A stretch of 64,000 nucleotides of DNA from an uncultured Opitutales bacterium (lineage in GTDB: Bacteria; Verrucomicrobiota; Verrucomicrobiia; Opitutales; UBA953). This document shows, piece by piece, positions 1,541 through 64,000 of the stretch (its first letter is position 1; every line of letters begins with the position of its first letter). Where the stretch lies: assembly GCA_934675585.1 (NCBI GenBank), contig CAKUQY010000003.1, forward strand, positions 1-64,000. Reading direction: 5' to 3'. A program made the translations under genes and the position numbers. The notes under the pieces were generated by a model, which saw only the letters and a list, made by a program, of their open reading frames with translations, had not been told where the DNA came from and ran no database searches.

Positions 1541-2689
1541 TTACAAAACAGATTTTAAAACGGCGCAAAAGCGTTCCCGCGAGGTGTCGCTCAAATTGCG
1601 ATTAAGCGAAATGCGCAAGCGTGATGTTCCCGCGGGAATGGTTGGCGGGCGAATTGCGCCCACGATAAAACCTGCATTTTTTAAAATTTTCGCCGCCTCG
1701 AGCATTTTATTTTCTTCTCCTAAAATAATCGAAATCACGGGTGATGTGAGCGTGCAATCGGTCGCGGGAACGATCGTGCGAATCGCCTCGCGCCACTTTT
1801 TTGAAAGCGCCGGCATGGCTTCGCGTTCCCGCGGCGAAAAATTTTTAACAACTTCGATCGCGCCAAGCGCCGCTCCCGCAGCAGCGGGTGGCAAATAAGT
1901 TGAATAAATAAATTCGGACGCAAAATTAATTAAATAGCGTCGCAAAATTTCATCATTAAAAAGCGTGTACGCTCCAGCCGCGCCGAGCGATTTGCCGAGC
2001 GTTCCCACCAAAATATCGACATTTTTTTGTAAGCCAAGCGCTTGGACGAGCCCGCCACCGTTTTCGCCAAACCAACCCGTTGCGTGCGCTTCATCGACAA
2101 TCAAAACAAATCCAAATTCCTCGCGCAAAATCGTGAGTTCCCGCAAATCTGGGCTATCGCCGTCCATCGAATAAACGCTTTCGACTGCGACAAAAATATT
2201 TTTATAATTTTGATTTTTTTCGAGCAATTGCCTCAAATGCGCCAAATCGTTGTGGCAAAAACGTTGAAAACGCGCGCCACTTTTTAAGATCCCGTTAATC
2301 ATACTATTATGAATTAAACGGTCAGCAAGAATTAAATCGTCACGTTGCGGGAGCGTTCCCAAAACCGCACAATTTGCCGCAAAACCAGTATTCCAAATCA
2401 AACCGCATTCAAAACCAATCCATTCGCAAAGTGCGCGTTCGAGTTGCGCGTGAATTGCCTTGTAGCCCGTAACCAGCGGCGATGCGCTTGCGCTCGCGCC
2501 CCATTTTTCGACGGCGGCGATCGCGCTCGCTTTCACGGCTTCATTTTGCGCCAAACACAAATAATCGTTGGTAGACAAATCAATCACGTTCCCGCAATCG
2601 CGTTCCCGTGCCACTAAAATGCGTTCCCGCGCAGACTTTGCGCGTTCGTCTAATTGCGTTTCAAATAATGAAAAATCTTGTTTTGCCAT
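1541..2689 (-). CDS. bioF: 8-amino-7-oxononanoate synthase
   Basis: PLP-dependent alpha-oxoamine synthase that condenses pimeloyl-ACP (or -CoA) with L-alanine in biotin synthesis. The 382 residues are the usual family length. Visible motifs: STNDYLCL near 39-46, the DEAH of IVDEAHATGWFG at 199-202 (cofactor contacts), and the PLP lysine in GTLGKSLGAAG (Lys233). It starts 9 bp after the bioC stop and closes a run bioG/H-like, bioC, bioF, so the pimeloyl branch is clustered. No Shine-Dalgarno sequence precedes the ATG, only an A/T-rich spacer. bioA and bioD are not in the window; bioB is far away near 58 kb. Many iterated-motif copies fall in the gene in different frames. Confidence 0.95.
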   Translation of the reverse strand: MAKQDFSLFETQLDERAKSARERILVARERDCGNVIDLSTNDYLCLAQNEAVKASAIAAVEKWGASASASPLVTGYKAIHAQLERALCEWIGFECGLIWNTGFAANCAVLGTLPQRDDLILADRLIHNSMINGILKSGARFQRFCHNDLAHLRQLLEKNQNYKNIFVAVESVYSMDGDSPDLRELTILREEFGFVLIVDEAHATGWFGENGGGLVQALGLQKNVDILVGTLGKSLGAAGAYTLFNDEILRRYLINFASEFIYSTYLPPAAAGAALGAIEVVKNFSPREREAMPALSKKWREAIRTIVPATDCTLTSPVISIILGEENKMLEAAKILKNAGFIVGAIRPPTIPAGTSRLRISLNRNLSDTSRERFCAVLKSVL

Positions 2690-2698
2690 TTTTTATAA

Positions 2699-3415
2699 TT
2701 AAATACATTCCACGCGCATCGCCGCCCAAGTCGCGAAAACGCCCGTTCCCGCGGGAACGCGAAATTGTTGATCGTAAATTTTAATAATGGCGCGCAATTT
2801 TTCCGGCACAAGCGTTCCCGCCGCGCTCGTAGCTCCCGTCGCGTGAATTTGCCGTAGCAACGCCAATGCCGACGGATAATTTTCTTTGATAATTTTTGTT
2901 TCGGCGCGCAAAATTTTTAATCCTGCATCCGCAAATGCTTTTCGCCAAATGGTTTCATCGCGCCACACAACGGGCGTTCCCGCGAGCGATGCCAATTCGC
3001 ACAATGTCGGCTCAATAAAAAACGCGTGCAACATTTTGCCATTTTTTCGCAAGGCATTTTTCATATTTTTTAAAACTCTTGGCAAATCGGACGCCCATTG
3101 CAACATACTTGACGAACACAAAAAATCGCAACATTTTTCTGGCAAATTCCAAGCGTCTTCTTTGCGCCAATGCGCATTTGGACAATTTATTTTGCCCTGC
3201 TCAATCATTGCGAATTCTAAATCTGTCGCGCAAACATTTTCAAAATAACGACACAATTTTTGCGTAAAAATTCCCGTTCCCGCGCCGACTTCCAAGACAT
3301 CGCCCGCGCTAAATTCAAGCCATTCCGCCAGCCATTCTGCCACGCGCATTTGCACGCTCGCGCCGCAATTATACGTTCCCGCGCGCAGCGCAAAATTTTG
3401 TAAATTGGCGCTCAT
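2699..3415 (-). CDS. bioC: malonyl-ACP O-methyltransferase (BioC)
   Basis: SAM-dependent class I methyltransferase, 238 residues. Motif I is VLEVGAGTGIFT near residues 40-51; motif II has the acidic residue in CATDLEFAMI; a DAWNLP segment and SSSMLQWASDL follow, as in BioC. BioC methylates malonyl-ACP so that a disguised pimeloyl chain can be built by fatty-acid enzymes. The neighbours support this: an alpha/beta hydrolase that could remove the methyl ester overlaps its start (ATGA, 3412-3415), and bioF follows 9 bp downstream. A generic class I methyltransferase is the alternative on sequence alone; context makes BioC likely. Confidence 0.85.
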   Translation of the reverse strand: MSANLQNFALRAGTYNCGASVQMRVAEWLAEWLEFSAGDVLEVGAGTGIFTQKLCRYFENVCATDLEFAMIEQGKINCPNAHWRKEDAWNLPEKCCDFLCSSSMLQWASDLPRVLKNMKNALRKNGKMLHAFFIEPTLCELASLAGTPVVWRDETIWRKAFADAGLKILRAETKIIKENYPSALALLRQIHATGATSAAGTLVPEKLRAIIKIYDQQFRVPAGTGVFATWAAMRVECI

Positions 3416-4032
3416 AACAGCGTTCCCAGATTATGCGTTCCCGCAGAAACAACAAGACAATTTTTTAGCGGGAACGGCAATTGTTTTAATTTTTCGCAAT
3501 CTAAAAGCGCGTCATTTTCGCCCCAAATAAAATGCCAATTTTTCGCGCTTGGCGGGAACGTTAAAACGCGTTCGTTTTGCAAAATTTCCAAGCCCGCGTC
3601 CAACGCTTCGAGCGATGCTGGCGGATTTTCGCCAAGCGTAAAATCAAGTTCCGCGCGTTGATAAAAATCTAAAATCGCTGCGCACCAATCTTTTTTTAGC
3701 CAACGGCGCAAAAATTTAATTTGCGTTCCCGCGATGCGTCCGCCTTGCTCTGCTTCGCGCGGGAACGCAAAAAATGGTGCAAATAAAAATGTGTTCCCGT
3801 GAACGAATTGATTTTTTTCGGCGGCTTTTAAAAGCAATAATGCGCCGAGCGAATAAGCGATGACGCAATCTTCGGGCGCGAGCGCGGGAACGACTTCGTT
3901 CAAAAATAATCCAAAATCTTCAGGCGTTGCGTTAAATGCAATAATTTGTTCGGCGGGAACGTTGCGCTTTTTTGCCAATACTTTCGCCGCTTGTTTTGCT
4001 TCAACCGCCCAGCCAGAAATTAGATAAATCAT
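3412..4032 (-). CDS. alpha/beta hydrolase, probable pimeloyl-ACP methyl ester esterase (BioG/BioH-like)
   Basis: 206 residues of a compact alpha/beta hydrolase. The N-terminal MIYLISGWAVEA resembles the oxyanion region of BioH/BioG. The nucleophile elbow is IAYSLGALLL (Ser61), the acid is probably Asp174 in WGENDALL, and the histidine is His200 in AGTHNLG. BioG and BioH are alternative, non-homologous-by-subfamily enzymes that hydrolyse pimeloyl-ACP methyl ester. The small size and lack of a large lid favour BioG, but I cannot decide from sequence alone, so I leave the symbol blank. Its stop overlaps the bioC start by 4 nt, implying coupled translation. It follows folP by 19 bp. Confidence 0.75.
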   Translation of the reverse strand: MIYLISGWAVEAKQAAKVLAKKRNVPAEQIIAFNATPEDFGLFLNEVVPALAPEDCVIAYSLGALLLLKAAEKNQFVHGNTFLFAPFFAFPREAEQGGRIAGTQIKFLRRWLKKDWCAAILDFYQRAELDFTLGENPPASLEALDAGLEILQNERVLTFPPSAKNWHFIWGENDALLDCEKLKQLPFPLKNCLVVSAGTHNLGTLL

Positions 4033-4051
4033 AAAATCGTTCCCGACAAAA

Positions 4052-4906
4052 TTATTTAACGCGCATCAACGCGTCGGCAGTGATTGCAACATCGCGAATT
4101 GCGGCGACATCGTGCACGCGCAACATCGCCGCGCCGCCAGCGATTCCAAGCGTGGCACAAGCCGCATCTGCGCCGCCGCGCTCTTTTGGCGGTTTGCCAG
4201 CGAGAATTTTTCCCAACGCGCTTTTGCGTGAAGTTCCCAATAAAACAGGAAATCCCAGCGCGACGATTTCGCGCATTTTCGTTACGATTTGCAAATTTTG
4301 TTCGAGCGATTTGCCAAAGCCGAATCCTGGGTCGAGCCAAATTTTTTCGGCGGGAACGCCAGCTTTCAAAATAATTTCAACGCCCGCGCGCAAATCGTTG
4401 AGCAATTCGCTCATAAAATCTTCGCCATAATTTTCATCGCCAAAACGGTTGTGCATCGCGATTAACGGTGCTCCCGTCGTCGCCGCCAAACGCGCCATTT
4501 CATAATCGCGTTCCCGCATTTTTGAAACAGAAAAAATTGCGCAAACGTCGTTAAGAATGTCCGCTCCCGCCGCGAGCGCTTGCTCAGCCACGCGCGCGTG
4601 ATAAGTATCAACGCTCACGGGAACGTCAGGCAACGCTTGGCGAATCGCTTTGAGCGCGGGCAAAAGTCGCGCCATTTCTTCATCTTCGTTAATTTTGCGC
4701 GAGCCCGGACGCGTACTTTCAGCGCCGAGATCGATGACATCAGCACCCTGCGCGACTAATTCTTGGGCGTGAGTGGCGGCGGCTTGCGGGTCGAGAAATT
4801 CGCCGCCATCGGAAAACGAATCGGGCGTCGCGTTGACAATGCCCATAATCAATGTGCGTTGCTCAGCGCGTGCTTTTGCAAAAATTGTTTCAAAACGATT
4901 AGCCAT
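4052..4906 (-). CDS. folP: dihydropteroate synthase
   Basis: 284 residues, usual length. It condenses p-aminobenzoate with dihydropterin pyrophosphate in folate synthesis. The family signature LIMGIVNATPDSFSDGGEF lies near residues 19-37, GADVIDLGAESTRPG near 54-68, the VSVDTYHARVA strand near 97-107, DPGFGFGKSLEQN near 192-204, and the C-terminal LRVHDVAAIRD is conserved. The start overlaps the rsmA stop by 8 nt (4899-4906). It is part of the minus-strand block der-rsmA-folP-bioG/H-bioC-bioF. Confidence 0.95.
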   Translation of the reverse strand: MANRFETIFAKARAEQRTLIMGIVNATPDSFSDGGEFLDPQAAATHAQELVAQGADVIDLGAESTRPGSRKINEDEEMARLLPALKAIRQALPDVPVSVDTYHARVAEQALAAGADILNDVCAIFSVSKMRERDYEMARLAATTGAPLIAMHNRFGDENYGEDFMSELLNDLRAGVEIILKAGVPAEKIWLDPGFGFGKSLEQNLQIVTKMREIVALGFPVLLGTSRKSALGKILAGKPPKERGGADAACATLGIAGGAAMLRVHDVAAIRDVAITADALMRVK

Positions 4907-5780
4907 TGTTTTTAATAATCATTTGATTGAGTGCTTGCCACGCCGCGGGAACGATATTTTCGGGACGATCAGTTTTTGCGCAAGCAAAGTTTGGCAACAA
5001 TTCAAGCCATTCTGCGACGAGCACGGGAGCAACTGTGGGCGGGAACGCAATTTGTTTCAACGCCGCGCCCAATTGTTTGCGACGATAAATAAAAATTTCG
5101 CGCACGATCTTTTTTGTCGCGGGAACGAATTTTTGTGGCTGTTTTTTCAAACGCAAATGCAACAAACAAGAATCAATTTTTGGCGGCGGGAAAAAACAAT
5201 TTGCGGAAACATTGTGCCCTGGCGCACGCTCGTAAACCGCATCAAGAAAAACGGAAAGCGCGCCATAATTTTTCGTGCCCGGCGTTCCCGTGAAACGATC
5301 GGCGGCTTCTTTTTGCAACATTAAAACAAGCGTTGTCGGCAAATTATCAAAGTCCAAAACCGCGTCCATCCACGGCGTCGAAATCGCGTAAGGCAGATTC
5401 GCGACAATTTTAAACGGCGTTCCCGCGGGCATTTTTTGTGGAAATTCAGCGAGCGGAAATTCCATCGCGTCGCCTTCAATCAGCGAAAAATTTTCAGGAT
5501 AATCGGGCGCGACGCGTTCCCGCAAATGCGCCGCCATTGTTGCATCGCGTTCGACAGCAAACACGCGCGTTCCCGCCTGCAAAAGCGTCGTTGTCAGCGT
5601 TCCCAGCCCTGGTCCGACTTCGACGACGACATCGCCCGCGTGAATTTCTGCCAATTCGAGCGATTTTTTGACAATGTTGCCGTCAATCAAATAATTTTGT
5701 CCTAACCATTTTTTCGGCGAATGCCCAAGCGATGCGAGCAATTCGCGCGTTTGCGAAAGATTGAAAGGTCCGGTCAACAT
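4899..5780 (-). CDS. rsmA: 16S rRNA (adenine1518/1519-N6)-dimethyltransferase
   Basis: KsgA family, 293 residues. It dimethylates two adjacent adenosines in the 3' hairpin of 16S rRNA. LGQNYLID (about 25-32) is the family entry motif, VVEVGPGLGTLT the SAM motif I, and VANLPYAIST the NLPY catalytic motif IV. The C-terminal domain contains FFPPPKIDSCLL as usual. The ATG at 5778-5780 follows a spacer holding two iterated-motif copies. The distance to the der stop is 53 bp, so read-through from der is plausible. Confidence 0.95.
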   Translation of the reverse strand: MLTGPFNLSQTRELLASLGHSPKKWLGQNYLIDGNIVKKSLELAEIHAGDVVVEVGPGLGTLTTTLLQAGTRVFAVERDATMAAHLRERVAPDYPENFSLIEGDAMEFPLAEFPQKMPAGTPFKIVANLPYAISTPWMDAVLDFDNLPTTLVLMLQKEAADRFTGTPGTKNYGALSVFLDAVYERAPGHNVSANCFFPPPKIDSCLLHLRLKKQPQKFVPATKKIVREIFIYRRKQLGAALKQIAFPPTVAPVLVAEWLELLPNFACAKTDRPENIVPAAWQALNQMIIKNNG

Positions 5781-5833
5781 TTTGCGGGAACGTGTTTTTG
5801 CGGGAACGGTTTAGCGTTCGGTTTTGCTCTTTT

Positions 5834-7270
5834 TTACGGGACGCTCTTTTTTGGTTTTCCCACAAAATCGAATTTTACGGGAACGCCGCCGAGATCGAAC
5901 GCTTCATAAAATTTTGCTTTGAGATAACGCTCGTAAGCTTCGTCGAGACGCTCTTCTGAATTGCAGTAAAGCGCGATGCGAATTGGCTTATTTTTTGTTT
6001 GCAAAGCGTAATAACATTTAAAGCGGCGACCACTCACAACGCGCGGCTCTTGCATTGCCATGGCTTTAGCGATTGCGCGATTAACTTGACCTGTCGGCAA
6101 ACGCACATTCATGCGTTCGTTAAGCTCAACGGCTTCTGCGAGCAAATCTTCGACGTGATAACCTTCGGTTGCCGAGGTAAAAATTACGCGCGATCCTGGC
6201 AAGAAAAAGAGTTCGCGATTGATTGCCTTAACAAATGCGCGACGAAATTCTTCTTCGTTTTCGTAATCGCCTGCCGATTTGCCGCCTTTGAAGTGTTTGC
6301 GCGCCAAATCCCATTTGTTGACGACAATCACCAAGCCGACGCCGAGATCAATAAGACTTCCCGCGAGTTGTTTGTCGAGGCGTGTCACGCCTGTTACGGC
6401 ATCAATCACCAAAAAACAAACATCCGCGCGCTGCATCGCTTCATCGGTGCGCAACGACGAAAAATATTCGAGCGTATCAAATTTATTTTTGGCGCGCTTT
6501 CCCGCGGTATCGACGAGCTCAAAGAAATGTTCGTTCCCGCCCTTGTCTGTCCAATTAAGACGTTTTTTAATGGGGTCGCGCGTCGTTCCCGCGACATCTG
6601 AAACAATCAAGCGTTCTTCTTTGAGCAAGCAATTGCCGAGCGAACTTTTGCCCACATTGGGCTTTCCCGCCAAGCAAATGCGAATCGGTTGCGGCTCTTT
6701 GGGCGCTTTGGGTTTTTCGATAACGTTCCCGTCTTCGTCGATGATTTCTTCGTCGTCTTCGGGCATGCCGATCACTTTGAGAATTTCTTGGCGCAAAAAT
6801 TCGAGTCCCAAATTGTGTTCCGCCGAAATCAAAATCGGCGTGCCAAACCCCAATTTAAAAAACTCGCCTTGATCCATTTTGCGATCATCGTTATCAACTT
6901 TATTGACGACGAGCACAACGCGTTTGTTAAATTTGCGCAAAGCGGCGGCGACTTCGAGATCGAGCGGCGTACAGCCCTGCGTAATGTCTGTCACCATGAC
7001 AACGCATTCTGCCGCGTTGATCGCAAAATTAACTTGCTCTTCAACCGCGTCGGCAATCACTTTGGGCGTCGATTCTTCGGTGAAAAGTCCAATTCCGCCC
7101 GTGTCCATCAACAAATAATCATCGCCCGCCACGCGCTCGGTAATCAAATCGCGCGTTACGCCTGGCATATCGTGGACAATCGAAATGCGCCGTCCAACCA
7201 AGCGGTTAAACAAGCGACTTTTACCGACGTTGGGTCTACCAACAATCGCAACAGAACGTGGAATGGTCAT
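5834..7270 (-). CDS. der: ribosome biogenesis GTPase Der (EngA)
   Basis: 478 residues with two tandem GTPase domains and a C-terminal KH-like domain, the diagnostic EngA layout. The first G1 is VGRPNVGKSRLFN near residues 10-22, with DTGG (G3) and NKVD (G4). The second G1 is LAGKPNVGKSSLG near 200-212, with DTAG and NKWD. An acidic linker (EDDEEIIDEDG) separates the domains. Needed for 50S assembly. No Shine-Dalgarno motif; a TAGAAT about 50 bp upstream is a candidate -10 box. The C-terminus ends in a basic KKSVP tail. Confidence 0.97.
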   Translation of the reverse strand: MTIPRSVAIVGRPNVGKSRLFNRLVGRRISIVHDMPGVTRDLITERVAGDDYLLMDTGGIGLFTEESTPKVIADAVEEQVNFAINAAECVVMVTDITQGCTPLDLEVAAALRKFNKRVVLVVNKVDNDDRKMDQGEFFKLGFGTPILISAEHNLGLEFLRQEILKVIGMPEDDEEIIDEDGNVIEKPKAPKEPQPIRICLAGKPNVGKSSLGNCLLKEERLIVSDVAGTTRDPIKKRLNWTDKGGNEHFFELVDTAGKRAKNKFDTLEYFSSLRTDEAMQRADVCFLVIDAVTGVTRLDKQLAGSLIDLGVGLVIVVNKWDLARKHFKGGKSAGDYENEEEFRRAFVKAINRELFFLPGSRVIFTSATEGYHVEDLLAEAVELNERMNVRLPTGQVNRAIAKAMAMQEPRVVSGRRFKCYYALQTKNKPIRIALYCNSEERLDEAYERYLKAKFYEAFDLGGVPVKFDFVGKPKKSVP

Positions 7271-7345
7271 AAGATTTTAATAAAGTTTAAATAAATTACG
7301 CGATGTAATAAATTCTATTAGTCTTGGCGCAAAGTGTAAACAAAA

Positions 7346-7402
7346 TAAAAAGCGCGTTCCCGCGAAAAAGCTCAAAGATTCTCGCGGGAACGCATTTTTT
7401 GA
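7346..7402. terminator. rho-independent terminator built from the iterated motif
   Basis: A 12-bp perfect stem, GCGTTCCCGCGA (7354-7365) with its complement at 7382-7393 and a 16-nt loop, is flanked by A/T runs on both sides, so it can work on either strand. It follows ridA on the minus strand and precedes der. The stem is simply two head-to-head copies of the motif that recurs throughout the window. Confidence 0.8.
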
Positions 7403-7413
7403 AGTGCTCAATT

Positions 7414-7878
7414 TTATTCGACTTCGAGAATTACTTGCACCTCTGCGGTTGCGTTTAAGGGAACGCCCGGCAAAGCGACCGCCGCACGCGCGTGCTTGCC
7501 CGCTTCTCCAAAAATTTCCACCAAAACATCAGACGCGCCATTGATGACTTTGGGAGCCATTTCAAAGCCCGCGGGAGCGTTTACAAAGCCGTTGACATTG
7601 ACGACGCGCTTGATTTTATCGAGCGAACCGAGCGCAGCTTTTGCGTTTGCCAAAGCCGCCAAAGCACAAGCTTTTGCCGCCGCGTAGCCATAATCGATGT
7701 CTTTTTCTGGCGCAGAACCAATCATGCCCGTGTAAGCCAATTTGCCATCAACCATCGGGAGCGTTCCCGCGATGAAAAGCAAATTGCCCGTGCGAACGCT
7801 TGGAACATACGAGCCCGCAGGCGCAGGCGGTGGAGGCAAAACCAAACCTAATGATGTAATTTTTTCTTCGATTGTCAT
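7414..7878 (-). CDS. RidA/YjgF-family protein
   Basis: 154 residues of the YjgF/YER057c/UK114 fold, a small trimeric enzyme family whose best-known member (RidA) hydrolyses reactive enamines/imines from PLP enzymes. Visible: SYVPSVRTGNLLFIAGTLP near 23-41, the central VVNVNGFVNAPAGF, and the C-terminal HARAAVALPGVPLNATAEVQVILEV with the conserved arginine (HARAAV) and a final Glu. It belongs to the longer RutC-like YjgF subgroup. The start codon lies 9 nt after a TATAAT box (7888-7893), so the mRNA is probably leaderless or nearly so. Confidence 0.85.
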   Translation of the reverse strand: MTIEEKITSLGLVLPPPPAPAGSYVPSVRTGNLLFIAGTLPMVDGKLAYTGMIGSAPEKDIDYGYAAAKACALAALANAKAALGSLDKIKRVVNVNGFVNAPAGFEMAPKVINGASDVLVEIFGEAGKHARAAVALPGVPLNATAEVQVILEVE

Positions 7879-7887
7879 AGTAAATTC

Positions 7888-7916
7888 ATTATAAAATCAA
7901 ACCCAAAAACAAGCAA
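7888..7916 (-). promoter_or_regulatory. promoter of the ridA-family gene
   Basis: On the minus strand TTGCTT (7911-7916), a 17-bp spacer and TATAAT (7888-7893) form a sigma-70-type promoter. Only 9 nt separate the -10 box from the ATG, leaving a leader of 2-3 nt at most. Confidence 0.65.
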
Positions 7917-7919
7917 GTG

Positions 7920-7966
7920 CAAGAAAAACGCGTTCCCGCAGAATTTCGCGGGAACGCGTTTTCAAA
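7920..7966 (-). terminator. terminator of argC, iterated-motif stem
   Basis: A 13-bp perfect inverted repeat (7927-7939 with 7948-7960; stem AACGCGTTCCCGC, 8-nt loop) is followed on the minus strand by TTTTTCTT. It lies just after argC. Again two opposed motif copies make the stem. Confidence 0.75.
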
Positions 7967-7979
7967 CTTCACTTCGACT

Positions 7980-9026
7980 TTACAAAATGCCAGCTGTTTC
8001 GTTGAAGCCAAGCGCGAGATTCATCAATTGCAAGGCTTGACCCGAAGCGCCTTTGACGACATTGTCGATGCACGAAGTGATGACAAAATTGCCCGTGCGT
8101 TTGTCAAAAACCGCCGAAATATCCGCGCGATTCGTTCCCGCGACATGAGCGGTGTCGGGGAATTTTCCGCTTGGCAAAATCGCGACAAATGGCTTGTCGT
8201 CATACGCTTTCATCCAGCAATTATAAAGTTGCTCGAGCGTTGCCCCGTTTGCGGGAACGGTAATAGTTGTCGAAATTCCGCGTTTCATTGGCGCGAGATG
8301 TGGACAAAATTGCACGATTATTGGCGTTCCCGCCGCGAGTGAAAGTTGCTCTTCGATTTCAGAAAGATGGCGATGTTTTGGCAAGCCGTAAGCTTTTGCC
8401 GATTCGTCGCGTTCGCAATAAGCATAAGCCAAGTCGGTTTTTTTGCCTGCGCCCGAAACACCCGAATAAGAATTGATAACGCAGGTTCCCGCGGCTGGGC
8501 GAATCAAACCTGCGCGCAATAATGGCACGAGCGGAATTTGAATGCTGGTTGGGTAGCAACCTGGGCAAGCCACGAGCGATGCTTTTTTCCAATTGTCATC
8601 TTTTGCAAGTTCGGGAACGACATACGGCGAAGCTTTCATCAATTCGACATCAGGATGCGGTTTGCCGTAATATTCTTCATAAATTGCGGGATCGTTCAAA
8701 CGAAAATCTGCCGACAAATCAAAAACACGTTTGCCTGCGGCAACGAGCGGACGTGCATATTCGGCGGCAACACCATGCGGGAGCGCCAAAAACCAAACAT
8801 CAATCGACTCGTTGCAAATCGCTTGCGGGTCAGCTTGGATAAAAGTCAGCCCGTGCGGTATGCTTTCGCGAAATTGTGGCATCACATCAGCCAAGAGCGT
8901 TCCCGCAAGCGAGCGGGAACACACGCAGGCCAATTCTGCATTTGGGTGGCGCGAGAGCAAGCGCACTAATTCTTCGCCTGCATAACCGCTCGCGCCAACA
9001 ATGCCTACTTTTACTTTCCTACTCAT
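7980..9026 (-). CDS. argC: N-acetyl-gamma-glutamyl-phosphate reductase
   Basis: NADP-dependent reductase of arginine synthesis (N-acetylglutamyl phosphate to the semialdehyde). The NAD(P)-binding start VKVGIVGASGYAGEELVRLL is followed by the catalytic Cys in ACPGCYPTSIQIPL and by the CPHLAPMKRGI histidine motif. I chose the ATG at 9024-9026 (MSRKVKVGIVGA), giving 348 residues; an ATG at 9036-9038 inside the last codons of the upstream galactosidase gene would add four. The overlap or near-overlap suggests one transcript with the GH35 gene, an odd pairing. argB is 48 kb away at 56931, so the arginine genes are dispersed. Confidence 0.95.
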   Translation of the reverse strand: MSRKVKVGIVGASGYAGEELVRLLSRHPNAELACVCSRSLAGTLLADVMPQFRESIPHGLTFIQADPQAICNESIDVWFLALPHGVAAEYARPLVAAGKRVFDLSADFRLNDPAIYEEYYGKPHPDVELMKASPYVVPELAKDDNWKKASLVACPGCYPTSIQIPLVPLLRAGLIRPAAGTCVINSYSGVSGAGKKTDLAYAYCERDESAKAYGLPKHRHLSEIEEQLSLAAGTPIIVQFCPHLAPMKRGISTTITVPANGATLEQLYNCWMKAYDDKPFVAILPSGKFPDTAHVAGTNRADISAVFDKRTGNFVITSCIDNVVKGASGQALQLMNLALGFNETAGIL

Positions 9027-9031
9027 TATTT

Positions 9032-10915: not shown

Positions 10916-10974
10916 ATTTTTATAGTTAGGGTTATGTAACCATTATAAAGTCTAAATCACGTTCCCGCGAACAA

Positions 10975-55348: not shown

Positions 55349-56875
55349 TTAATAACTTTTTGCGAAAACGACGCGACGCGGTGAAGGTTCGCCTGTGAAT
55401 GGACAAATGCCCGGCTCTGGCGGGAACTCTTTATCATCAAGCGGAATGCAACGAATTGTCACGTTCAAATCGGCTTTGATTTTTGCCTCGACTTCGGGAG
55501 AGCCGTTCCAGTGGCAAAGCGCGAAACCGCCGTGAATTTCTGGCTTTTCTTTATTTTGAGGTGTAAAGAATGCGTAGAAATCTTCTTTGTTGTCGATGAT
55601 TTTTGTATTGTCCGCGCGGAATTTTTTTGCGCGCGCCAAAAGATTATCTTGAATTGTTTGCAATTGTTCGGCGATGGTTGCGACAAAGGTGTCGCGATTC
55701 ATCGTTGATTTTTCCATCGTATCGCGGCGCGCCACAAAAACATTGTTTTCGGCAATGTCGCGCGGACCGATTTCAACGCGCAACGGAACGCCTTTTTTAA
55801 CCCAGCCCCAAGCTTTTTCGCCGCCGCGAATGTCGCGATTGTCGATTTTGACTAAAATTTTGCGGTCGGCATAACGCTGAGCTGAGAGTTCTGCGCGCAA
55901 TTTTTCGCAATATTCATCGACAGAGGCTCTGCTTTCTTCGCCACGATAAACAGGCAAAATCACAACGTGCAACGGCGCTAAACGTGGCGGGACGATGAAG
56001 CCATCGTCATCCGAATGCGTCATAATCATACCACCAATAAGACGTGTCGAAACGCCCCACGAAGTCGTCCAAGCGTATTGAAGCGCTCCCGTTTCGGTTT
56101 GAAATTGAATATTACAACTTTTTGCAAAATTTTGTCCAAGAAAATGTGACGTTCCCGCCTGCAACGCTTTGCGGTCTTGCATCATGGCTTCGATGCAAAG
56201 TGTATCAACGGCGCCAGGGAAACGTTCGTTTGCGGTTTTGTGTCCGCGAATCACCGGCATCGCCATAAATTCTTCGGCAAATTGTGCGTAAACGTCGAGC
56301 ATTTTGCGCGTTTCTTCTTCGGCTTCGGCGGCAGTTGCGTGAACGGTGTGGCCTTCTTGCCACAAAAATTCAGCAGTGCGCAAAAACAAGCGTGTGCGCA
56401 TTTCCCAACGAACAACGTTTGCCCATTGATTAACCAAAATTGGCAAATCGCGATAACTTTGCACCCATTTTGAATAAGTCGCGCCGATGATAGTTTCAGA
56501 CGTTGGGCGCACAATGAGTGGCTCGTCAAGTTCGCCCGCGGGAACGAGTTTGCCTTCTTCGTTTGCTTCCAAACGCGAATGCGTAACCACCGCACATTCT
56601 TTAGCAAAACCATCGACATGCTCGGCTTCTTTTTCGATAAAACTTTTGGGAATAAAAAGTGGAAAATAAGCGTTTACGTGGCCAGTTTCTTTAAACATCG
56701 CGTCCAAGCCGTCGTGAATATTTTCCCAAAGCGTGTAGCCCCAAGGTTTAATCACCATGCAGCCGCGCACAGGCGAATTTTCTGCCAAGTCAGCGGCTTT
56801 AATCACTTGTTGGTACCATTCTGGATAATCTTCAGAACGGCGTGGTGAAATTGCGTTTTTTGCTGGTTTTGCCAT
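55349..56875 (-). CDS. proS: prolyl-tRNA synthetase, archaeal/eukaryotic type
   Basis: 508 residues. It lacks the editing insertion of E. coli-type ProRS and starts SPRRSEDYPEWYQQVIKAADLAENSPVRGCMVIKPWGY. Class II motifs: PLIVRPTSETIIG and RWEMRTRLFLRTAEFLWQEGHT (motif 2), and a C-terminal zinc-less extension ending VVFAKSY. The sequence belongs to the archaeal/eukaryotic ProRS branch found in scattered bacteria. Essential. Confidence 0.95.
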   Translation of the reverse strand: MAKPAKNAISPRRSEDYPEWYQQVIKAADLAENSPVRGCMVIKPWGYTLWENIHDGLDAMFKETGHVNAYFPLFIPKSFIEKEAEHVDGFAKECAVVTHSRLEANEEGKLVPAGELDEPLIVRPTSETIIGATYSKWVQSYRDLPILVNQWANVVRWEMRTRLFLRTAEFLWQEGHTVHATAAEAEEETRKMLDVYAQFAEEFMAMPVIRGHKTANERFPGAVDTLCIEAMMQDRKALQAGTSHFLGQNFAKSCNIQFQTETGALQYAWTTSWGVSTRLIGGMIMTHSDDDGFIVPPRLAPLHVVILPVYRGEESRASVDEYCEKLRAELSAQRYADRKILVKIDNRDIRGGEKAWGWVKKGVPLRVEIGPRDIAENNVFVARRDTMEKSTMNRDTFVATIAEQLQTIQDNLLARAKKFRADNTKIIDNKEDFYAFFTPQNKEKPEIHGGFALCHWNGSPEVEAKIKADLNVTIRCIPLDDKEFPPEPGICPFTGEPSPRRVVFAKSY

Positions 56876-56930
56876 TTTTTTAGTTTTAAAAATTCAATTG
56901 ATAAAAGTGCGTTCCCGCGAAAGCGCAAAA

Positions 56931-57851
56931 TTAAACTTGCACTTCAGGATTAAAAAGTTGCACGTCTGGATGAATGATTTCTGTGCCAACGCCTGCTTTG
57001 GTAAAGATTTCAAGCAAAAGCGAGTGCGGTGTGCGGCCATCAATAAAGTGAACGCGGCGAACACCCGATTGGAGCGCTTTGACGGCAGAATCAACTTTTG
57101 GAATCATACCTTTTGAAATCACGCCCGTTTTTTTGAGATGATCAACTTCACTGACTGGCAACGTTGAAATGAGCGACGCGGGATCACTTGGGTCGGCGAG
57201 TAAACCAGGAACATCAGACATAAAAATCAAACGACGCGCTTTAAGCGCCGAAGCCACTGCTGCTGCTGCCGCATCAGCGTTGGTGTTGTAAGGATGATCG
57301 TCATCGTCAACCGCGATTGGCGAAATGACAGGAATTTTCCCTTCGTTCAACGCTTTTTTGATCAACTTTGTTTTAACAGATTTGATGTTCCCGACAAAGC
57401 CAATATCGATTGGCTCGCCGTTTTCATCATATTGCAATAATTTGGTACAAACATTAACATTGTTGCCAGGCATCCCTTGCGCTGAGCCATTTTTGCGCTC
57501 AATAGTCTTGCAAATATCAACATTGATTTCTTCATTAAGCGTTTTTTCGACGATTTTTACCACCTGCTCGTCGGTAACGCGCATGCCGTTTTTCCATTGT
57601 GGAACGATTGCCGATTTTTCCATCGCACGCGTAATCGCTTTGCCGCCACCGTGAACAACGACAACTTTGATTCCCACCGCATTTAAAAACACAATATCGG
57701 CAGCCACGCGTTCCCGCACAACAGGATCGTCAGAATCCATAAAACTGCCGCCGTATTTTACGACAAAAACAGAATCGTGGAAGCGTTGAATATAAGGAAG
57801 TGCCTCGAGGAGCACGCCCGCCTTTGCAATCAATTCAGACTCGTTAATCAT
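56931..57851 (-). CDS. argB: acetylglutamate kinase
   Basis: 306 residues. [10 protein letters not shown] (phosphate loop Lys-Tyr-Gly-Gly), [20 protein letters not shown] and the C-terminal [18 protein letters not shown]. The extra linker and the ADHPYN-like [15 protein letters not shown] insert are as in the arginine-sensitive group, so feedback inhibition is possible. The ATG at 57851 (MINESEL) is chosen over the TTG four codons upstream. Confidence 0.95.
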
Positions 57852-57908
57852 TTCTAAAAACAAACTTATTTTTATGATAATCTTTCACGTTCCCGCGAGC
57901 AATCATTT

Positions 57909-59090
57909 TTAGTGGTGATGATCGCCGTTGCAGGCGCGGCCCCAAGTTCCGTTTTCGTCCATCTCATTTTCGTGTCCTTTGACAAGCGCGGGATCAAGTT
58001 CTGACGGATTTTCATCTGGCGCGGGAACGTTTTCCACGGGAACGCTTTCCGCGGGAACGTGATCGTGATGATGATCGTGGTGATGTTCTCCGCCGCAGGT
58101 GCAAACTTCGCAAGTGCCGTCGCCCTTGCAACCGCTCATTTTTTTCTTATGCTCCAACGGGTCGAGCGGACTCAAGCCGAATTTTTTCAACATCAAATAA
58201 TCTTTGTCAATGCCCGAATTCTCGCGCGTCAGCAAGCGTTCGCCCAAGAAAATTGAGTTCGCTCCCGCACAAAAACAAAGTGCCTGCGCTTCCTCGCTCA
58301 TATTCGCGCGTCCCGCTGAAATACGGATAATCGCCTTGGGAACGATAATGCGCGCTACCGCGACGATGCGCACAAATTCGATGACATCGACGGGCGGACG
58401 GCCTTCGAGCGGCGTTCCCGGACAAGGAATCAGCGCGTTGATTGGAATGCTTTCGGGTGGCGTTTCCATATTTGCCAATTCACAAAGCATTTTCAAGCGG
58501 TCATCGAGCGTTTCGCCCATGCCTAAAATGCCGCCGCTGCAAACGCCCATTCCCGACTCTTGAACATTGCGGATCGTTTCGAGGCGATCATCGTAAGTGC
58601 GCGTCGTGATGATTTCTGGATAAAATTCGCGCGAAGTATCAAGATTGTGATTATAAATATCACAGCCCGCGTCTTTGAGACGTTTTGCTTGGTCGAGCGT
58701 CAAAAGTCCAAGCGTGCAACAAACCTGCAAGCCGAGCGCTTTCACTTGGCGCACCGTTTCGAGCACCGATTCAAATTGCGGACCTTCTACAGGTTTACGC
58801 CAAGCCGCGCCCATGCAAAAACGTCCTGCTCCCGCAGCTTTTGCCTTGCGTGCGGCTTCGACGATTTTTTCAGTCGCCATCAACGGCTCTGGCTTGCAAG
58901 AAGAATGGCGCGATGATTGCGGGCAATACGCGCAATCTTCGGGGCAAGCACCCGTCTTGATCGATTGCAACATATTTAACTGCACGGTATTTGGCACTTG
59001 CGCTTGTTGATGCACTTCTTGTGCATAATAAACCAGCGAAGTCAGTGGCAAATTATAAAGTTTTCTAACGTCATCTAAATAATAAATCAT
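57909..59090 (-). CDS. bioB: biotin synthase with His/Cys-rich C-terminal tail
   Basis: 393 residues; the family is usually about 320-350. Radical-SAM cluster in KTGACPEDCAYCPQS; second [2Fe-2S] residues NHNLDTS and RISAGRAN are in place. After about 320 comes an unusual tail: KGDGTCEVCTCGG, then HHHDHHHDH, then a Val-Pro-Ala-rich linker encoded by three motif copies spaced exactly 15 bp apart (58022, 58037, 58052), and a final CNGDHHH. It looks like a metal-binding appendix. Preceded by a good Shine-Dalgarno sequence (AGGAG, 9 nt). Confidence 0.95.
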   Translation of the reverse strand: MIYYLDDVRKLYNLPLTSLVYYAQEVHQQAQVPNTVQLNMLQSIKTGACPEDCAYCPQSSRHSSCKPEPLMATEKIVEAARKAKAAGAGRFCMGAAWRKPVEGPQFESVLETVRQVKALGLQVCCTLGLLTLDQAKRLKDAGCDIYNHNLDTSREFYPEIITTRTYDDRLETIRNVQESGMGVCSGGILGMGETLDDRLKMLCELANMETPPESIPINALIPCPGTPLEGRPPVDVIEFVRIVAVARIIVPKAIIRISAGRANMSEEAQALCFCAGANSIFLGERLLTRENSGIDKDYLMLKKFGLSPLDPLEHKKKMSGCKGDGTCEVCTCGGEHHHDHHHDHVPAESVPVENVPAPDENPSELDPALVKGHENEMDENGTWGRACNGDHHH

Positions 59091-59113
59091 TATCGTTTTC
59101 TCCTAAAAAAATT

Positions 59114-59587
59114 TTAATAACGGCGACGCATCGCGCGATCAATTTCGCGTTTTGCCTCGCGCTTTTTAATATCGGCGCGCTTGTCGTAAAGTTTTTTGCC
59201 CTTGCCCAGCGCAATCGTAATCTTCGCCAAACCATGAGCAAAATGAATATTGAGCGGCACAATACTCATGCCACCCGCCTGCACCGCTTGCTTTAACTCG
59301 CGCACTTCTTTCGCGTGCAACAGCAAATGGCGCGGACGATACGGATTGTGATTGCTCGCGTTCCCGAAACCATATTCCGAAATGTGAGCGTGATAAAGCG
59401 TCGGGCGATTATCAAAATCAATGCGCACAAACGAATCGGCAATGTTCGCGCGCCCTTCCCGCAACGCCTTAACTTCCGTTCCCGTCAATACAAGTCCCGC
59501 CTCAAAGCGTTTCAGCAATTCATAATCGCGCGACGCTTTAGGATTCCGCACTTCTGCGGCAACTTTATTGTCTTTGTGTTTGCTCAT
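59114..59587 (-). CDS. smpB: SsrA-binding protein
   Basis: 157 residues. KVAAEVRNPKASRDYELLKRFEAGLVLTGTEVKALREGRANIADSFVRI is the SmpB beta-barrel and KKLYDKRADIKKREAKREIDRAMRRRY the C-terminal helix that reads the empty mRNA channel. The partner of ssrA at 26688. The ATG at 59587 (MSKHKDNK) is chosen; the open frame extends ten codons upstream. 23 bp ahead of bioB. Confidence 0.96.
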   Translation of the reverse strand: MSKHKDNKVAAEVRNPKASRDYELLKRFEAGLVLTGTEVKALREGRANIADSFVRIDFDNRPTLYHAHISEYGFGNASNHNPYRPRHLLLHAKEVRELKQAVQAGGMSIVPLNIHFAHGLAKITIALGKGKKLYDKRADIKKREAKREIDRAMRRRY

Positions 59588-59651
59588 TATTAAAAAAGCA
59601 GCCCGAGACGCTAACACGCACCACAGACTGCTTCTCGAAAAAAATTAAAAA

Positions 59652-59891
59652 TTAGTCGAGATTGGGCAATTCATAAGATAATTTACCCGCCACGATCTCT
59701 GCGAGAGCAATATCTTCAGCTTCCCACGATGAAACACCTGCCACCAAAGGACCTGGCACCGAGCACGGTTCATGTTTTTTCAATGCCTTATTATGACGGT
59801 GCAAATCATGGACGCGCTTTGAAACAACATTCACGAGAATGTTTGGATCGGTAATAATTTTTGAGGCCTGATCTAAAAGTTCTTGATTCAT
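59652..59891 (-). CDS. rpoZ: RNA polymerase omega subunit
   Basis: 79 residues. VNVVSKRVHDLHRHNKAL and EDIALAEIVAGKLSYEL match the omega core (V-N-V-V-S-x-R and E-I-A-x-x-E-I-x-x-G-K). Short but complete. Nine nt separate TATAAT from the ATG. Confidence 0.85.
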   Translation of the reverse strand: MNQELLDQASKIITDPNILVNVVSKRVHDLHRHNKALKKHEPCSVPGPLVAGVSSWEAEDIALAEIVAGKLSYELPNLD

Positions 59892-59900
59892 AGTTCAAAG

Positions 59901-59929
59901 ATTATAACATTTTGAAGATTTTAATGCAA
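59901..59929 (-). promoter_or_regulatory. rpoZ promoter
   Basis: Minus-strand TTGCAT (59924-59929), 17 bp, TATAAT (59901-59906), then 9 nt to the ATG. Confidence 0.65.
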
Positions 59930-59961
59930 ACGCTTTTCGGCAAACTCCGCGGGAACGCTTT

Positions 59962-62900
59962 TCATCCGTTGTATTTCTTAAAATTTTCCGCCTGCTCAAA
60001 AATTTCTGTAAAAACCTCATCATGAGTAACGGGCGGATAGCAGTGTTTCGCGAGAACGAGAATTAAATCCATTTTTAACTCTGCTTTGATATCATCACGC
60101 TTTGCCCAATCTGTATATTTCGATTTATCATCGACAATTTTACGGATTTCAGCCGCAAGTATTTTAATTTTATCTTCAGGATATTCAAAGCCGAATTGCT
60201 TGGCAACACTTTTCAAAATATCGTAGAATGCTTTTTCTTCATAAGAAATTCCCATTTCTTTGAAAGAACGTTTTTCTTTATTAACCTCTTTCAAAAGTTC
60301 TGCCATTTGATTTGCCACTTCCGTAAGCACTTCATTTGCAAAAATCGCGCTGTCTTTTCGTTCGTTGTATTTCGCCACCAAATCATTTAATTTCTTGGTA
60401 AAATCAACTCCTTGCTTTCGATTTACTTTAGAAAAATCGCCAATCACCGTTTTTATCAAACGCTCCATAAGCTTAACTTTGGTATTGGGCAATTTTAATT
60501 TTTTCAAACGCTCCATATAAATTTCGCTCAACACATCTAAGTTTTCCTTGTCGTCGCCAATTTGAATTATCTCTTCAACCGAATCGGATAAAATCGCAGC
60601 TTCAACCATCTTTTTTACTCGATTGTTCATTTGGACAATATCTGGCAAATCGCCCTTTGTTAATTTATAAACGACAGAACGAACACCGCAAAAGAAATGA
60701 ATATCTTCACGTTCCCGCAAAGTAATTGCTTCGCTGTTAGCACAAAGATTAAATGCGGATTTCATCTTTTTTGCATGCCCCATAAAATTATTTTCAAATT
60801 CTTTAGTGGCTTGCACATATTCTGCGGCACAATTCAAACAATCCAATTGCTCCAAAGGCGTTCCCGCCAAAAATGACGAATAATTAAATGACAAAAACAT
60901 TCGTCTAAGAATATCCAACTCATCTTTCACAATTGCAACAGATTGTTCAAGGTCTTCAACCGATTCGTTATTAAATTCTCCATTGGCATAACGCTTCAAC
61001 GCCACATTCATATTATTTTTAATGCCAATATAATCGACAACCAATCCCTTCTCTTTGCCAGGATAAACACGATTCACGCGCGAAATCGTCTGAACCAAAG
61101 TGTGTTGCTGCAACGGTTTGTCAATATACATTGTATCCAAACACGGCACATCAAATCCCGTAATCCACATATCCACCACAATCGCAATTTTAAAATTGGA
61201 TTTTGGATTTTTAAATTGCAAATCAAATTTCTTGCGATCATCATCGTTCCCGAGAAGATTATACAAATCGGGTTCATCGTCTTTATTGCGCGTCATTATC
61301 AATTTTATTCGTTCCGACGGCAATACTTCGTTCCCGTAACTCGCCATTGGTTCCGCAGCTCGCGAAAAACACTCCATACTTGCGACATTGTCTACATTGG
61401 GCATTTTAGCCCATTCTGGTCTCAACGCAATAATCTTTTTGTATAATTTGTAAGCAATCTGACGGTTTGAGCAAACAAACATCGCCTTGCCTTCAACCGT
61501 GGCACCTTCTTCAATTCGTTTTTCATAATGGGCGACGAAATCTTCGGCGACGGCTTGCAAACGATCGTCATCGCCAAGAATTTGTTCCATATTAACAACG
61601 GCTTTTTTGCTCGCTTCGATCTGATACTCATTCGCGCCCGCCTCTGCGCATTCTTTGTAATAATTTTCAATTGCCTTCAATTTTTCATTATCGAGCAAAA
61701 CTTTCGCGGCGCGCCCTTCGTAAACAATGCGGCGCGTAATACCGTCCGCCACCGATTCGGTCATCGTATAAGTATCGACTACTTCGCCAAAAACATCAAT
61801 CGTCGCGTCAATCGGCGTTCCCGTAAAACCGACATATGTCGCATTCGGCAACGAATCATGCAAATATTTCGCAAAACCGTAACTGCGCTTTACGCCTGTT
61901 TCCGTCTGCCGCATCTGCAAATTTAAATTCGTCTGCGAACGGTGCGCTTCGTCCGAAATGCAAATAATATTCGTGCGCTCGGAAAGCAATTGCGTATCTT
62001 CGGTAAACTTATGAATTGTTGTCAAAAATACACCACCGCTACTGCGATTTGACAAATGTTCCCGTAGCGCCGTGCGATTTTCCACTGCAATCACGCAATC
62101 GTCCCCGATAAATGTTTTCGCGCGCCCGAATTGTCCTGCCAATTGCGCATCAAGATCTGTACGATCTGTAATTAACAAAATTGTTGGACTCGCAAATTCG
62201 CGGGAACGCATCAGCATCCGCGTCAAAAAAAGCATCGTATAACTTTTTCCGCAACCTGTCGCGCCAAAATAAGTTCCGCCCTTGCCGTCTCCGTCGGTAT
62301 TTAATTTGCAGTGGCGGCGAATATTTTCAAATAATTTATGCGTCGCAAAAAATTGCGGATAACGGCAACCGATCTTTTCTTCTTTTTTCGAGCTGTCGGG
62401 AAAAAATACAAAATCTTTAACAACGCTCAAAAGTCGTTCTTTTTTAAAAAGTCCCTGCACCATCGTCAAAAGCGAACTGATGCCGTCTGCCACGCGCTCG
62501 TTTGCGTTCACTTTTCGCCAAGCATAGAAAAAATCATACGGCGTAAACAACGAACCGTATTTACTGTTCACCCCGTCACTGATGACGACAAAAGCGTTAT
62601 ATTTAAAAAGTTCAGGAATATCGCGGCGATAACGCACCGTTAACTGCGTGTAAGCGTTCCCAATCGTTGTCTCCTCTTTTATCGCGCTTTTAAATTCCAA
62701 AACAACCAACGGCAAGCCGTTAACATAAACGATCCCGTCGGGAATTCGTTTTTGTTCGCCTTGTATCTCCAATTGATTAACAATGCGAAAAATATTATTG
62801 CTTTTGTTTTCAAAATCAATCGGTTCGATAAAAAGATCGGACAATGTCGTATCTTCGCGTTTAAGCGAAAATCCTTCGGCAATCAGCCGATACGTCGCAA

Positions 62901-63141
62901 CATTTTGTTCATAAAGCGGCAGACCGTTATCGGCAGACAAGCGCGCAATCACGCTTTCAATTTCTAATTCTGTTATCCCTTGCGAAGAATAGCGTTCCCG
63001 CAAATACAACCGCAAATCATCGCGCAACAAAACATCATGAACTTCTTTATGAATTTCTTCACCGCTGCTATAAATGTAGCCCTCATTTTGAAAGAGCTCC
63101 ATTATCGCCATCTCGAGACTGTGTTCGTTAAAGTGAGGCAT
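59962..63141 (-). CDS. hsdR: type I restriction enzyme, R subunit
   Basis: 1059 residues. Nuclease domain PD-(D/E)xK: Asp135, Glu149, Lys151 in RIPDGIVYVNGLPLVVLEFKSA. Then the translocase: Walker A YFGATGCGKSYTML, DEAH in ICISDEAHRSQ, VGFTGTPID, and motif VI TLVQTISRVNRVYPG. The C-terminal helical region binds the methylase core. hsdM and hsdS are not visible; they may lie beyond the right edge. Eight iterated-motif copies occur in the gene, so it has been resident for some time. Confidence 0.95.
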   Translation of the reverse strand: MPHFNEHSLEMAIMELFQNEGYIYSSGEEIHKEVHDVLLRDDLRLYLRERYSSQGITELEIESVIARLSADNGLPLYEQNVATYRLIAEGFSLKREDTTLSDLFIEPIDFENKSNNIFRIVNQLEIQGEQKRIPDGIVYVNGLPLVVLEFKSAIKEETTIGNAYTQLTVRYRRDIPELFKYNAFVVISDGVNSKYGSLFTPYDFFYAWRKVNANERVADGISSLLTMVQGLFKKERLLSVVKDFVFFPDSSKKEEKIGCRYPQFFATHKLFENIRRHCKLNTDGDGKGGTYFGATGCGKSYTMLFLTRMLMRSREFASPTILLITDRTDLDAQLAGQFGRAKTFIGDDCVIAVENRTALREHLSNRSSGGVFLTTIHKFTEDTQLLSERTNIICISDEAHRSQTNLNLQMRQTETGVKRSYGFAKYLHDSLPNATYVGFTGTPIDATIDVFGEVVDTYTMTESVADGITRRIVYEGRAAKVLLDNEKLKAIENYYKECAEAGANEYQIEASKKAVVNMEQILGDDDRLQAVAEDFVAHYEKRIEEGATVEGKAMFVCSNRQIAYKLYKKIIALRPEWAKMPNVDNVASMECFSRAAEPMASYGNEVLPSERIKLIMTRNKDDEPDLYNLLGNDDDRKKFDLQFKNPKSNFKIAIVVDMWITGFDVPCLDTMYIDKPLQQHTLVQTISRVNRVYPGKEKGLVVDYIGIKNNMNVALKRYANGEFNNESVEDLEQSVAIVKDELDILRRMFLSFNYSSFLAGTPLEQLDCLNCAAEYVQATKEFENNFMGHAKKMKSAFNLCANSEAITLREREDIHFFCGVRSVVYKLTKGDLPDIVQMNNRVKKMVEAAILSDSVEEIIQIGDDKENLDVLSEIYMERLKKLKLPNTKVKLMERLIKTVIGDFSKVNRKQGVDFTKKLNDLVAKYNERKDSAIFANEVLTEVANQMAELLKEVNKEKRSFKEMGISYEEKAFYDILKSVAKQFGFEYPEDKIKILAAEIRKIVDDKSKYTDWAKRDDIKAELKMDLILVLAKHCYPPVTHDEVFTEIFEQAENFKKYNG

Positions 63142-63182
63142 AATTTTGTTTTTAAGGTTTAGGAGTTTAGCCGTTTAAACTA

Positions 63183-63962
63183 TTAATCATTTTTGTGTTG
63201 GTGAAAATCAATATTTCGCGTTCCGCGACAGCCAGTTGCAAGATAATTGCTACAACTCCAAAATTCCGTTCCCGCGCGCACGCCTTTTTTAGCCATTTTC
63301 TTAATCATTGGCGCGCCACATTTGGGACAAATCGGAGCCGTGGGATCGCTCGCACTCTTTTGTTTAATCGCCTCCAAGCGTTCCGCTGTCATATTTTCAG
63401 TAAAACCGCCTTGGTCACGAAATTCACCCAACAATTTCGCAATATATGCTTCTAACATATTAATCGCTCTCAAACACAAAAACAATAATGTATTCGCCAC
63501 CGTTTCCGCGTTCCCGCTACAAAAATACTTATCAAATTTTGATTTCTCCGACAAAACATGCTGAGCCGATTCGCGCAACCAATCATCTTTATAAATCGCG
63601 CGCTCAAAAGCCATACCATAAATTTCGCGCGCTGCTTCACTTTCTTTCGCCCACGGAATCATTTTGCGATGCAACAAATAATTATAATAATCGCCCATCA
63701 ACTCTGCCAAACTCGCACGCGCAACATCAAGCAATTTCATTTCCGTTTCACGCGAAGTTTGATGCCGTGAATATCCCTCCGCAATATTTGCAACGCCACT
63801 GCGCGCCGCCTGTGTCATTTGGTCAAATTGCCGCCCACACGGATCTGTCTTTGAAGAAAGAAAGCGCTCGCAAAAATCTTGAGTGCCCAATTGAATAATG
63901 TTGGTCAAAACCCACACATTCAAACTTAAATAACCCATCGTGCTATAAATGCGAACACCCAT
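63183..63962 (-). CDS. four-helix-bundle protein with C-terminal zinc ribbon
   Basis: 259 residues. The N-terminal about 200 are of the S23/four-helix-bundle type (FDQMTQAARSGVANIAEGYSRHQTSRETEMKLLDVARASLAEL). The C-terminal about 50 are a topoisomerase-type zinc ribbon (CPKCGAPM ... FWSCSNYLATGCRG). Such proteins, annotated as four helix bundle suffix domain, are often found inside type I restriction loci. It starts with ATG at 63962; an internal Met (MGYLSLNV, residue 9) fits the family start equally well. 41 bp upstream of hsdR, same strand. Role unknown. Confidence 0.85.
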   Translation of the reverse strand: MGVRIYSTMGYLSLNVWVLTNIIQLGTQDFCERFLSSKTDPCGRQFDQMTQAARSGVANIAEGYSRHQTSRETEMKLLDVARASLAELMGDYYNYLLHRKMIPWAKESEAAREIYGMAFERAIYKDDWLRESAQHVLSEKSKFDKYFCSGNAETVANTLLFLCLRAINMLEAYIAKLLGEFRDQGGFTENMTAERLEAIKQKSASDPTAPICPKCGAPMIKKMAKKGVRAGTEFWSCSNYLATGCRGTRNIDFHQHKND

Positions 63963-64000
63963 AATTTTTTGCCTTTCTTAAATTGTTTTTCCTTATCCGT

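Follow-up and report, generated by a model that had tools for sequence, protein, structure and literature searches.

A dense, clade-specific DNA word in uncultured bacteria, probably a third kind of DNA uptake sequence

Bacteria that select DNA by a short genomic word bind that word with surface receptors, namely ComP and the predicted ComN. The DNA uptake sequence (DUS) of the Neisseriaceae, read by the minor pilin ComP, is present in thousands of non-palindromic copies per genome, has an inner core with variable ends, extends clade-wide with sublineage variants and forms terminators from inverted pairs. The uptake signal sequence (USS) of the Pasteurellaceae has a 9-base core, AT-rich flanks and terminators likewise made from inverted pairs. 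Here we describe a word that shares these traits in a 64,000-base stretch of contig CAKUQY010000003.1 (the window, meaning the whole stretch analysed) and in related genomes. Its letters are unrelated to either signal (the USS core is AAGTGCGGT) and its bearers belong to another phylum. From the pattern of the copies we consider it probable that the word is a third, independent DNA uptake sequence, with a reader protein and an uptake role that are deduced rather than observed.

In the portions of the sources available to us, the Neisseriaceae and Pasteurellaceae are the only families known, as of 2025, to distinguish their own DNA with the help of a short word in the genome (PMC12616744), and they alone are named for uptake sequences in a second paper (PMC5031613). 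The same partial sources describe uptake sequences as denser outside genes, as originating by point mutation and as propagated by molecular drive through biased uptake and recombination (PMC7811141). They also report an orientation bias inside genes (PMC2346458), inverted repeats that serve as terminators (PMC12616744; PMC13020248) and a high density of USS that persists after recent inactivation of competence genes (PMC1626085). The densest DUS cited is kingDUS, with 5,918 copies in 2.4 Mb (PMC3630211). A different kind of frequent word, the highly iterated palindrome 1 (HIP1) of cyanobacteria, is described in the accessible part of one paper as palindromic, tied to orphan methylases, present at 300-2,700 copies per Mb in most cyanobacteria and surrounded by near-misses mainly at its ends (PMC4390886).

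An earlier reading of the window by a model that saw only its letters (the sequence-only reading) had claimed a very dense iterated word with the core GTTCCCG/CGGGAAC, and this claim was borne out and proved to be an understatement. The core occurs 313 times on both strands in 64,000 bases, against a mean of 7.87 and a largest value of 16 in 100 dinucleotide shuffles, and the two hand counts given at the time (23 copies in 1561-4080 and 24 in 27541-30725) were exact. The best-defined unit is the 8-mer CGTTCCCG, with 277 copies (4.3 per kb) against 3.1 expected from a first-order Markov model. It is mostly followed by C, and the resulting 9-mer CGTTCCCGC occurs 192 times against 1.1 expected from the same model; a maximum-order Markov model necessarily takes up the motif itself.

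82..63516, no strand assigned: iterated word CGTTCCCG(C)/(G)CGGGAACG, 277 8-mer copies, 163 on the plus and 114 on the minus strand

In copies of the 8-mer per kb, both the window (277 in 64 kb) and sampled sequence of the relative G162 (1,098 in 360 kb) exceed the value for kingDUS, in a comparison of words that differ in length. The window holds 3.84 copies per kb inside called open reading frames (ORFs) and 7.69 outside them, and the corresponding values outside and inside in three relatives are 4.00/2.91, 4.88/2.90 and 3.92/3.02, an overall ratio of 1.3-2, where gene calls are greedy ORF picks made without a trained gene finder.

The excess is not an artefact of the window, since genome-wide counts in relatives show massive enrichment too. 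Our search for GCGTTCCCGC in 372 sampled genomes of the order found six genomes of 1.6-2.1 Mb with 1,586-2,359 copies each (reversed control 9-20) and two further genomes with 332 and 135, while each of the other 364 had at most 66. Within the family of 79 genomes, CGTTCCCGC is present at 3,060-4,396 copies in six (G044, G059, G088, G109, G162 and G219, the strong genomes) against 44-60 for the reversed control, an enrichment of 59-100x. The two thin genomes, G172 and G226, have 743 and 336 copies against 62 and 37 (12x and 9x), and the remaining 71 are unenriched, at no more than about 1.6x control. These whole-genome counts were made by pattern search only, in genomes whose completeness is unstated; all other analyses of the strong relatives used samples of 38 to 420 kb each. 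The ProRS of the window also scores highest against these eight clade genomes (82-90% identity) among the 65 of 79 genomes with a match, and the full-length matches that follow stand at 80%. In a ProRS tree built from 22 of 30 fetched ProRS loci, three others and the window, the eight group with the window (88/98, too low for the tool's star mark), and G088 is its sister (100/100). The bacterium of the window is most likely an Opitutae-type member of the Verrucomicrobiota, because among the named loci listed (80 of 590) its top ProRS match is 'uncultured Opitutae bacterium' at 76%. One Oligoflexales locus (L055) that stood second in our first ranking turned out to be a local repeat.

The word is maintained at the level of DNA, as the sequence-only reading had proposed, and this is supported by codon shuffling and by the retention of sites between species. 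In the 50 called ORFs of the window, 216 copies were observed against a mean of 16.5 and a largest value of 22 in 30 synonymous-codon shuffles, and a codon-shuffled background, named by that reading as a check, therefore fails to account for the count. The same procedure gave 913 against 95.6 in G162, 495 against 45.2 in G088 and 427 against 50.5 in G044, and no excess in two motif-free relatives (1 against 4.2 and 4 against 2.3). Dinucleotide, Markov and codon shuffles together rule out chance, base composition and codon usage as the cause. Copies do occupy all six classes of frame and orientation (21/84/30 and 8/10/63). The preference for CGGGAAC on the coding strand noted in that reading holds in direction (135:81 or 1.7:1 in the window, 1.2-1.4:1 in three relatives) but does not reach the stated ratio of about 2:1. 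The word has a cost in protein sequence, as it forces Ala-Gly-Thr and Val-Pro-Ala into proteins: Ala-Gly-Thr occurs 64 times in the window proteins against 8.3 expected (7.7x; 4.9-6.1x in three relatives), and Val-Pro-Ala ranks second among tripeptides in the window and in all three relatives.

Between species, copies are kept far more often than control 8-mers of equal GC that contain a CG. From the window to its sister G088, at 75% DNA identity, 42 of 68 copies (62%) are identical, compared to 16% of 2,177 controls. Retention is 173 of 185 (94%) against 61% from G162 to G044, 72 of 111 (65%) against 28% from G162 to G059, and 19 of 39 (49%) against 12% from the window to G162. One-mismatch forms of the 9-mer, counted over seven strong sets (1.04 Mb), are found at 19x expectation at position 9 and at 3.2-5.4x at positions 1-3. 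At the inner positions they reach 2.3x at position 5 and 0.8, 1.0, 1.4 and 1.1 at positions 4, 6, 7 and 8. The inner core of the word is strict, and its ends are tolerant of change. A mobile repeat or inserted element was rejected because, apart from weak base preferences, the copies have no flank in common and many of the relatives' sites are a single substitution away.

The tolerant ends and the density, which is similar to or higher than that of HIP1, are what one would expect of a HIP-like word made or kept by a DNA methylase and methylation-directed repair, as has been proposed for HIP1. PF01555 methylases are indeed encoded in all six strong genomes. However, HIPs are palindromic and the word here is not (CGTTCCCG reads CGGGAACG on the opposite strand), and the PF01555 methylases are also present in both thin genomes and lie in frames of unlike length. 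Among three methylase families (PF00145, PF02384 and PF01555; other families were not searched), no cognate methylase common to the word bearers was found: PF00145 is missing from G109 and G219 and PF02384 from G088, with orthology judged by hit lists and not trees. Of the two likenesses drawn by the sequence-only reading, the one to DUS and USS is thus the better analogy, and the one to HIP1 fits less well. We regard a methylase origin of the word as unlikely.

A second possibility is that the word marks hotspots of recombination or repair, in the manner of Chi or otherwise, or is tied to the direction of replication. The word is short, non-palindromic and very frequent, and in each of four contigs the G-rich strand carries more copies in the form CGGGAACG than in the other. 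Polar motifs should go beyond base skew, yet in all four contigs the strand ratio matches the base-skew expectation (p = 0.59, 1, 0.69 and 0.86), and we therefore discarded polarity of the Chi or KOPS type. The copies are spaced nearly at random (coefficient of variation 1.03-1.30), with no regular spacing seen, and known Chi sites are far less frequent. We find this explanation quite unlikely.

Two copies placed head to head can form a perfect palindrome, as the sequence-only reading had said, and the window has two of these.

2744..2759, no strand assigned: perfect head-to-head palindrome of two copies (CGTTCCCGCGGGAACG)
52433..52448, no strand assigned: second perfect head-to-head palindrome

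Outside ORFs in seven genomes, close inverted pairs are found 57 times in the order CGTTCCCG..CGGGAACG and 14 times in the opposite order. AAAA before and TTTT after the pair flank 29 of the 57, none of the 14 and none of 30 same-strand pairs. The 57 lie between convergent (17), tandem (35) and divergent (5) ORFs. These inverted pairs between genes are likely to be terminator-like hairpins, and six inverted pairs lie outside called ORFs in the window.

7355..7392, no strand assigned: inverted pair flanked by an A-tract and a T-tract, likely a bidirectional intrinsic terminator
7931..7956, no strand assigned: inverted pair with A/T tract flanks, likely terminator
10985..11013, no strand assigned: inverted pair with A/T flanks, likely terminator (RNA fold -21.1 kcal/mol, z -4.87; top-listed of 36 scan matches)
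17404..17433, no strand assigned: inverted pair with an A-tract upstream and no T-tract downstream
25647..25675, no strand assigned: inverted pair with A/T tract flanks, likely terminator
55305..55331, no strand assigned: inverted pair with A/T tract flanks, likely terminator

Across 5001-25000, a mechanical scan for terminators showed no general excess (36 matches against a shuffle mean of 34.0). The flanks of the word vary between sublineages: coding copies in the window and G088 are A-rich at -8..-4 and have A at +10, which those of G162 and G044 do not. In having A-rich blocks on both sides, and in coding copies of this sublineage only, the word differs from USS.

The A-rich flanks of one sublineage, together with the coverage of both genes and spacers, could also suit binding by an abundant protein that organises the chromosome and coats all of it. 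However, two relatives manage with few copies, and we know of no nucleoid protein that requires thousands of strict 8-9-mer copies; this reading seems very unlikely to us. That biased mutation or gene conversion produces the word neutrally and with no reader, for which its spread through genes and spacers might speak, is highly improbable given inner positions free of near-miss excess, the 62% against 16% retention and the distortion of the proteome, effects that surpass any context-dependent mutation bias known to us.

The two thin genomes are likely to be relics of an ancestral tag that decayed after its loss, judging from where their copies and near-misses fall. Of the aligned copies, 13 of 14 in G172 and 5 of 8 in G226 have a counterpart at the same site in a strong relative, compared to 17% and 13% of control 8-mers. 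Strong sites lie one mismatch away in 31 of 89 cases in G172 and 15 of 55 in G226; with respect to G162 alone, G172 keeps 6 of 46 aligned copies and has 17 more that are one mismatch off. Near-misses at the inner position 4 are about 3.0x and 3.8x expectation in the thin genomes and show no excess in the strong ones, and the motif-free G254 has a near-miss at 1 of 20 sites. The shared copies and the position-4 near-misses disfavour the opposite view that G172 and G226 represent a starting state, an argument with few sites behind it for G226. The low density in all sixteen G172 loci tested (0-1.2 per kb) likewise disfavours the idea that this genome is a chimera of a strong and a motif-free one. 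A 10-kb overlap between two of the G172 pieces (L100 and L259) inflates some of its totals; the site counts are unchanged once it is removed.

No clear replacement word was found in the fetched loci of G172 or G226. The fetched loci of G226 have frequent CACCACCAACC-type repeats unrelated to the word, with ACCACCAAC present 56 times in 91 kb against 0.2 expected. The gene histories of G172 conflict (L111 and L231 versus L245 and L150) across the ProRS tree and a second set of gene trees, which used 12 of 14 genomes and dropped matches under half the query length. Its Tex is 95% identical to that of G162 and its ProRS falls in the G162 group, while its DprA (58%) and pilins (52-56%) are nearer G226, through either recombination or a mixed assembly.

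We favour an uptake sequence as the probable explanation because the word is short, non-palindromic, clade-specific, strand-neutral, terminator-forming, costly to proteins, conserved by site and losable, a combination that to our knowledge is found only in DUS and USS. Cells would use the word as a label for recognising and importing DNA of their own kind and would read it by a surface pilus protein; biased uptake and recombination would drive the formation and upkeep of copies. The thin genomes would then have lost specificity and not the whole uptake machine, and the strain of the window would share all this by way of its sister G088. The machinery that such a model needs is encoded in the clade: ComEC, DprA and PilB/PilT-type ATPases are each found in eight of the eight genomes, none of them within the window, and in G162 a run of PilC-PilB-PilT-PilB-like genes lies with DprA inside 15 kb.

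Several observations weigh against this interpretation. ComEC (73 of 79) and DprA (74 of 79) are as common in motif-free relatives of the family, and therefore their presence does not discriminate. Both thin genomes retain ComEC, DprA and the ATPases, and a simple loss of competence genes is therefore not seen. We found no clear ComEA, as PF12836 scored above its cut-off only in frames of 471-1,263 aa, with weaker matches (from 186 aa) left unexamined. Unlike in the Neisseriaceae, no ComP-like basic pilin was found among the 21 pilins examined of 42 in the strong genomes, whose globular parts have a pI of 4.2-5.5. All seven pilin kinds have a counterpart in G172, and six of the seven were seen in G226. 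With G219 there is no retention excess (1 of 7 and 1 of 6, a small sample), and the unenriched G230 has near-misses at 5 of 19 sites together with one shared intact copy. Acquired DNA gives little sign of lacking the word: the type I restriction gene of the window carries 7 copies, and the nine motif-free genes of at least 900 bp comprise four associated with phage, defence or methylases, three of core families and two with no match.

Prepilin matches number seven in each strong genome, 11 in G172 and in G226 and 6-11 in six motif-free genomes. By their size and order, the four additional prepilins of each thin genome resemble pseudopilins of type II secretion systems. Strong tagging goes with an apparent loss of a type II secretion-like system in the comparison of six strong with two thin genomes, and matches to the pilus/secretion ATPase family number four per strong genome and five per thin genome.

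Taken as a whole, we lean slightly towards the view that sequence-tagged sex arose in bacteria a third time and independently: this instance would lie in a far phylum, use an unrelated word, have the densest tag per kb that we found cited, rewrite the proteome and include species that are losing the tag with the uptake machine kept. The sequence-only reading knew of no such signal in this kind of organism, and our literature searches agree, having given, among the papers listed, no uptake-sequence report for Verrucomicrobia or Opitut-. The one paper that named both Verrucomicrobia and uptake sequences was a review of gene transfer in metagenomes which, in the part available, names the two apart. 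Among the matches listed, no title was on point for natural competence and type IV pili in Verrucomicrob-, and all titles listed for the word itself were unrelated. If the uptake reading is true, self-tagging arises repeatedly, the clade offers an independent test of the molecular-drive model, and there may be a new kind of DNA receptor to be found, as no examined pilin is ComP-like. Six strong and two thin genomes form a natural series for seeking that reader. Transformation would then be a route of gene exchange among these uncultured bacteria, and a DNA tag would in part dictate the sequences of their proteins.

The window is a piece of chromosome with ordinary housekeeping genes, a tmRNA and a tRNA-Cys. 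Three of its features stand out by their density of the word.

90..1388, no strand assigned: longest 8-mer-free stretch of the window, possibly acquired DNA, over an RHS-like ORF
3412..4032, minus strand: densest of the 50 called ORFs (7 copies, 11.3 per kb), with no Pfam match
59962..63141, minus strand: type I restriction HsdR gene, 7 copies (2.2 per kb), below average

The ORF at 595-1536, at the motif-poor edge of the window, has a single copy of the word; it has no Pfam match and has the look of an RHS-repeat-associated ORF. A 4.6-kb 8-mer-free stretch in G162 (contig C11, about 180.8-185.4 kb, L167) lies over RexA-like and HSDR_N-like genes and is likely to be a recent defence island. 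An 18-base double palindrome matched two IMG/VR phage contigs, each of which has 3 copies where 0.95 and 0.53 were expected.

The tmRNA gene (26688-27058) contains the 7-base core once, at 26967-26973, and thus a structured RNA tolerates it. An Acido-Lenti-1 RNA was matched at 20961-21007 with 37.3 bits against a gathering score of 37. Finally, PEP-CTERM/PATR and autotransporter-type surface proteins at 17474-20581 and 52799-54976 carry 10 and 11 copies, respectively.

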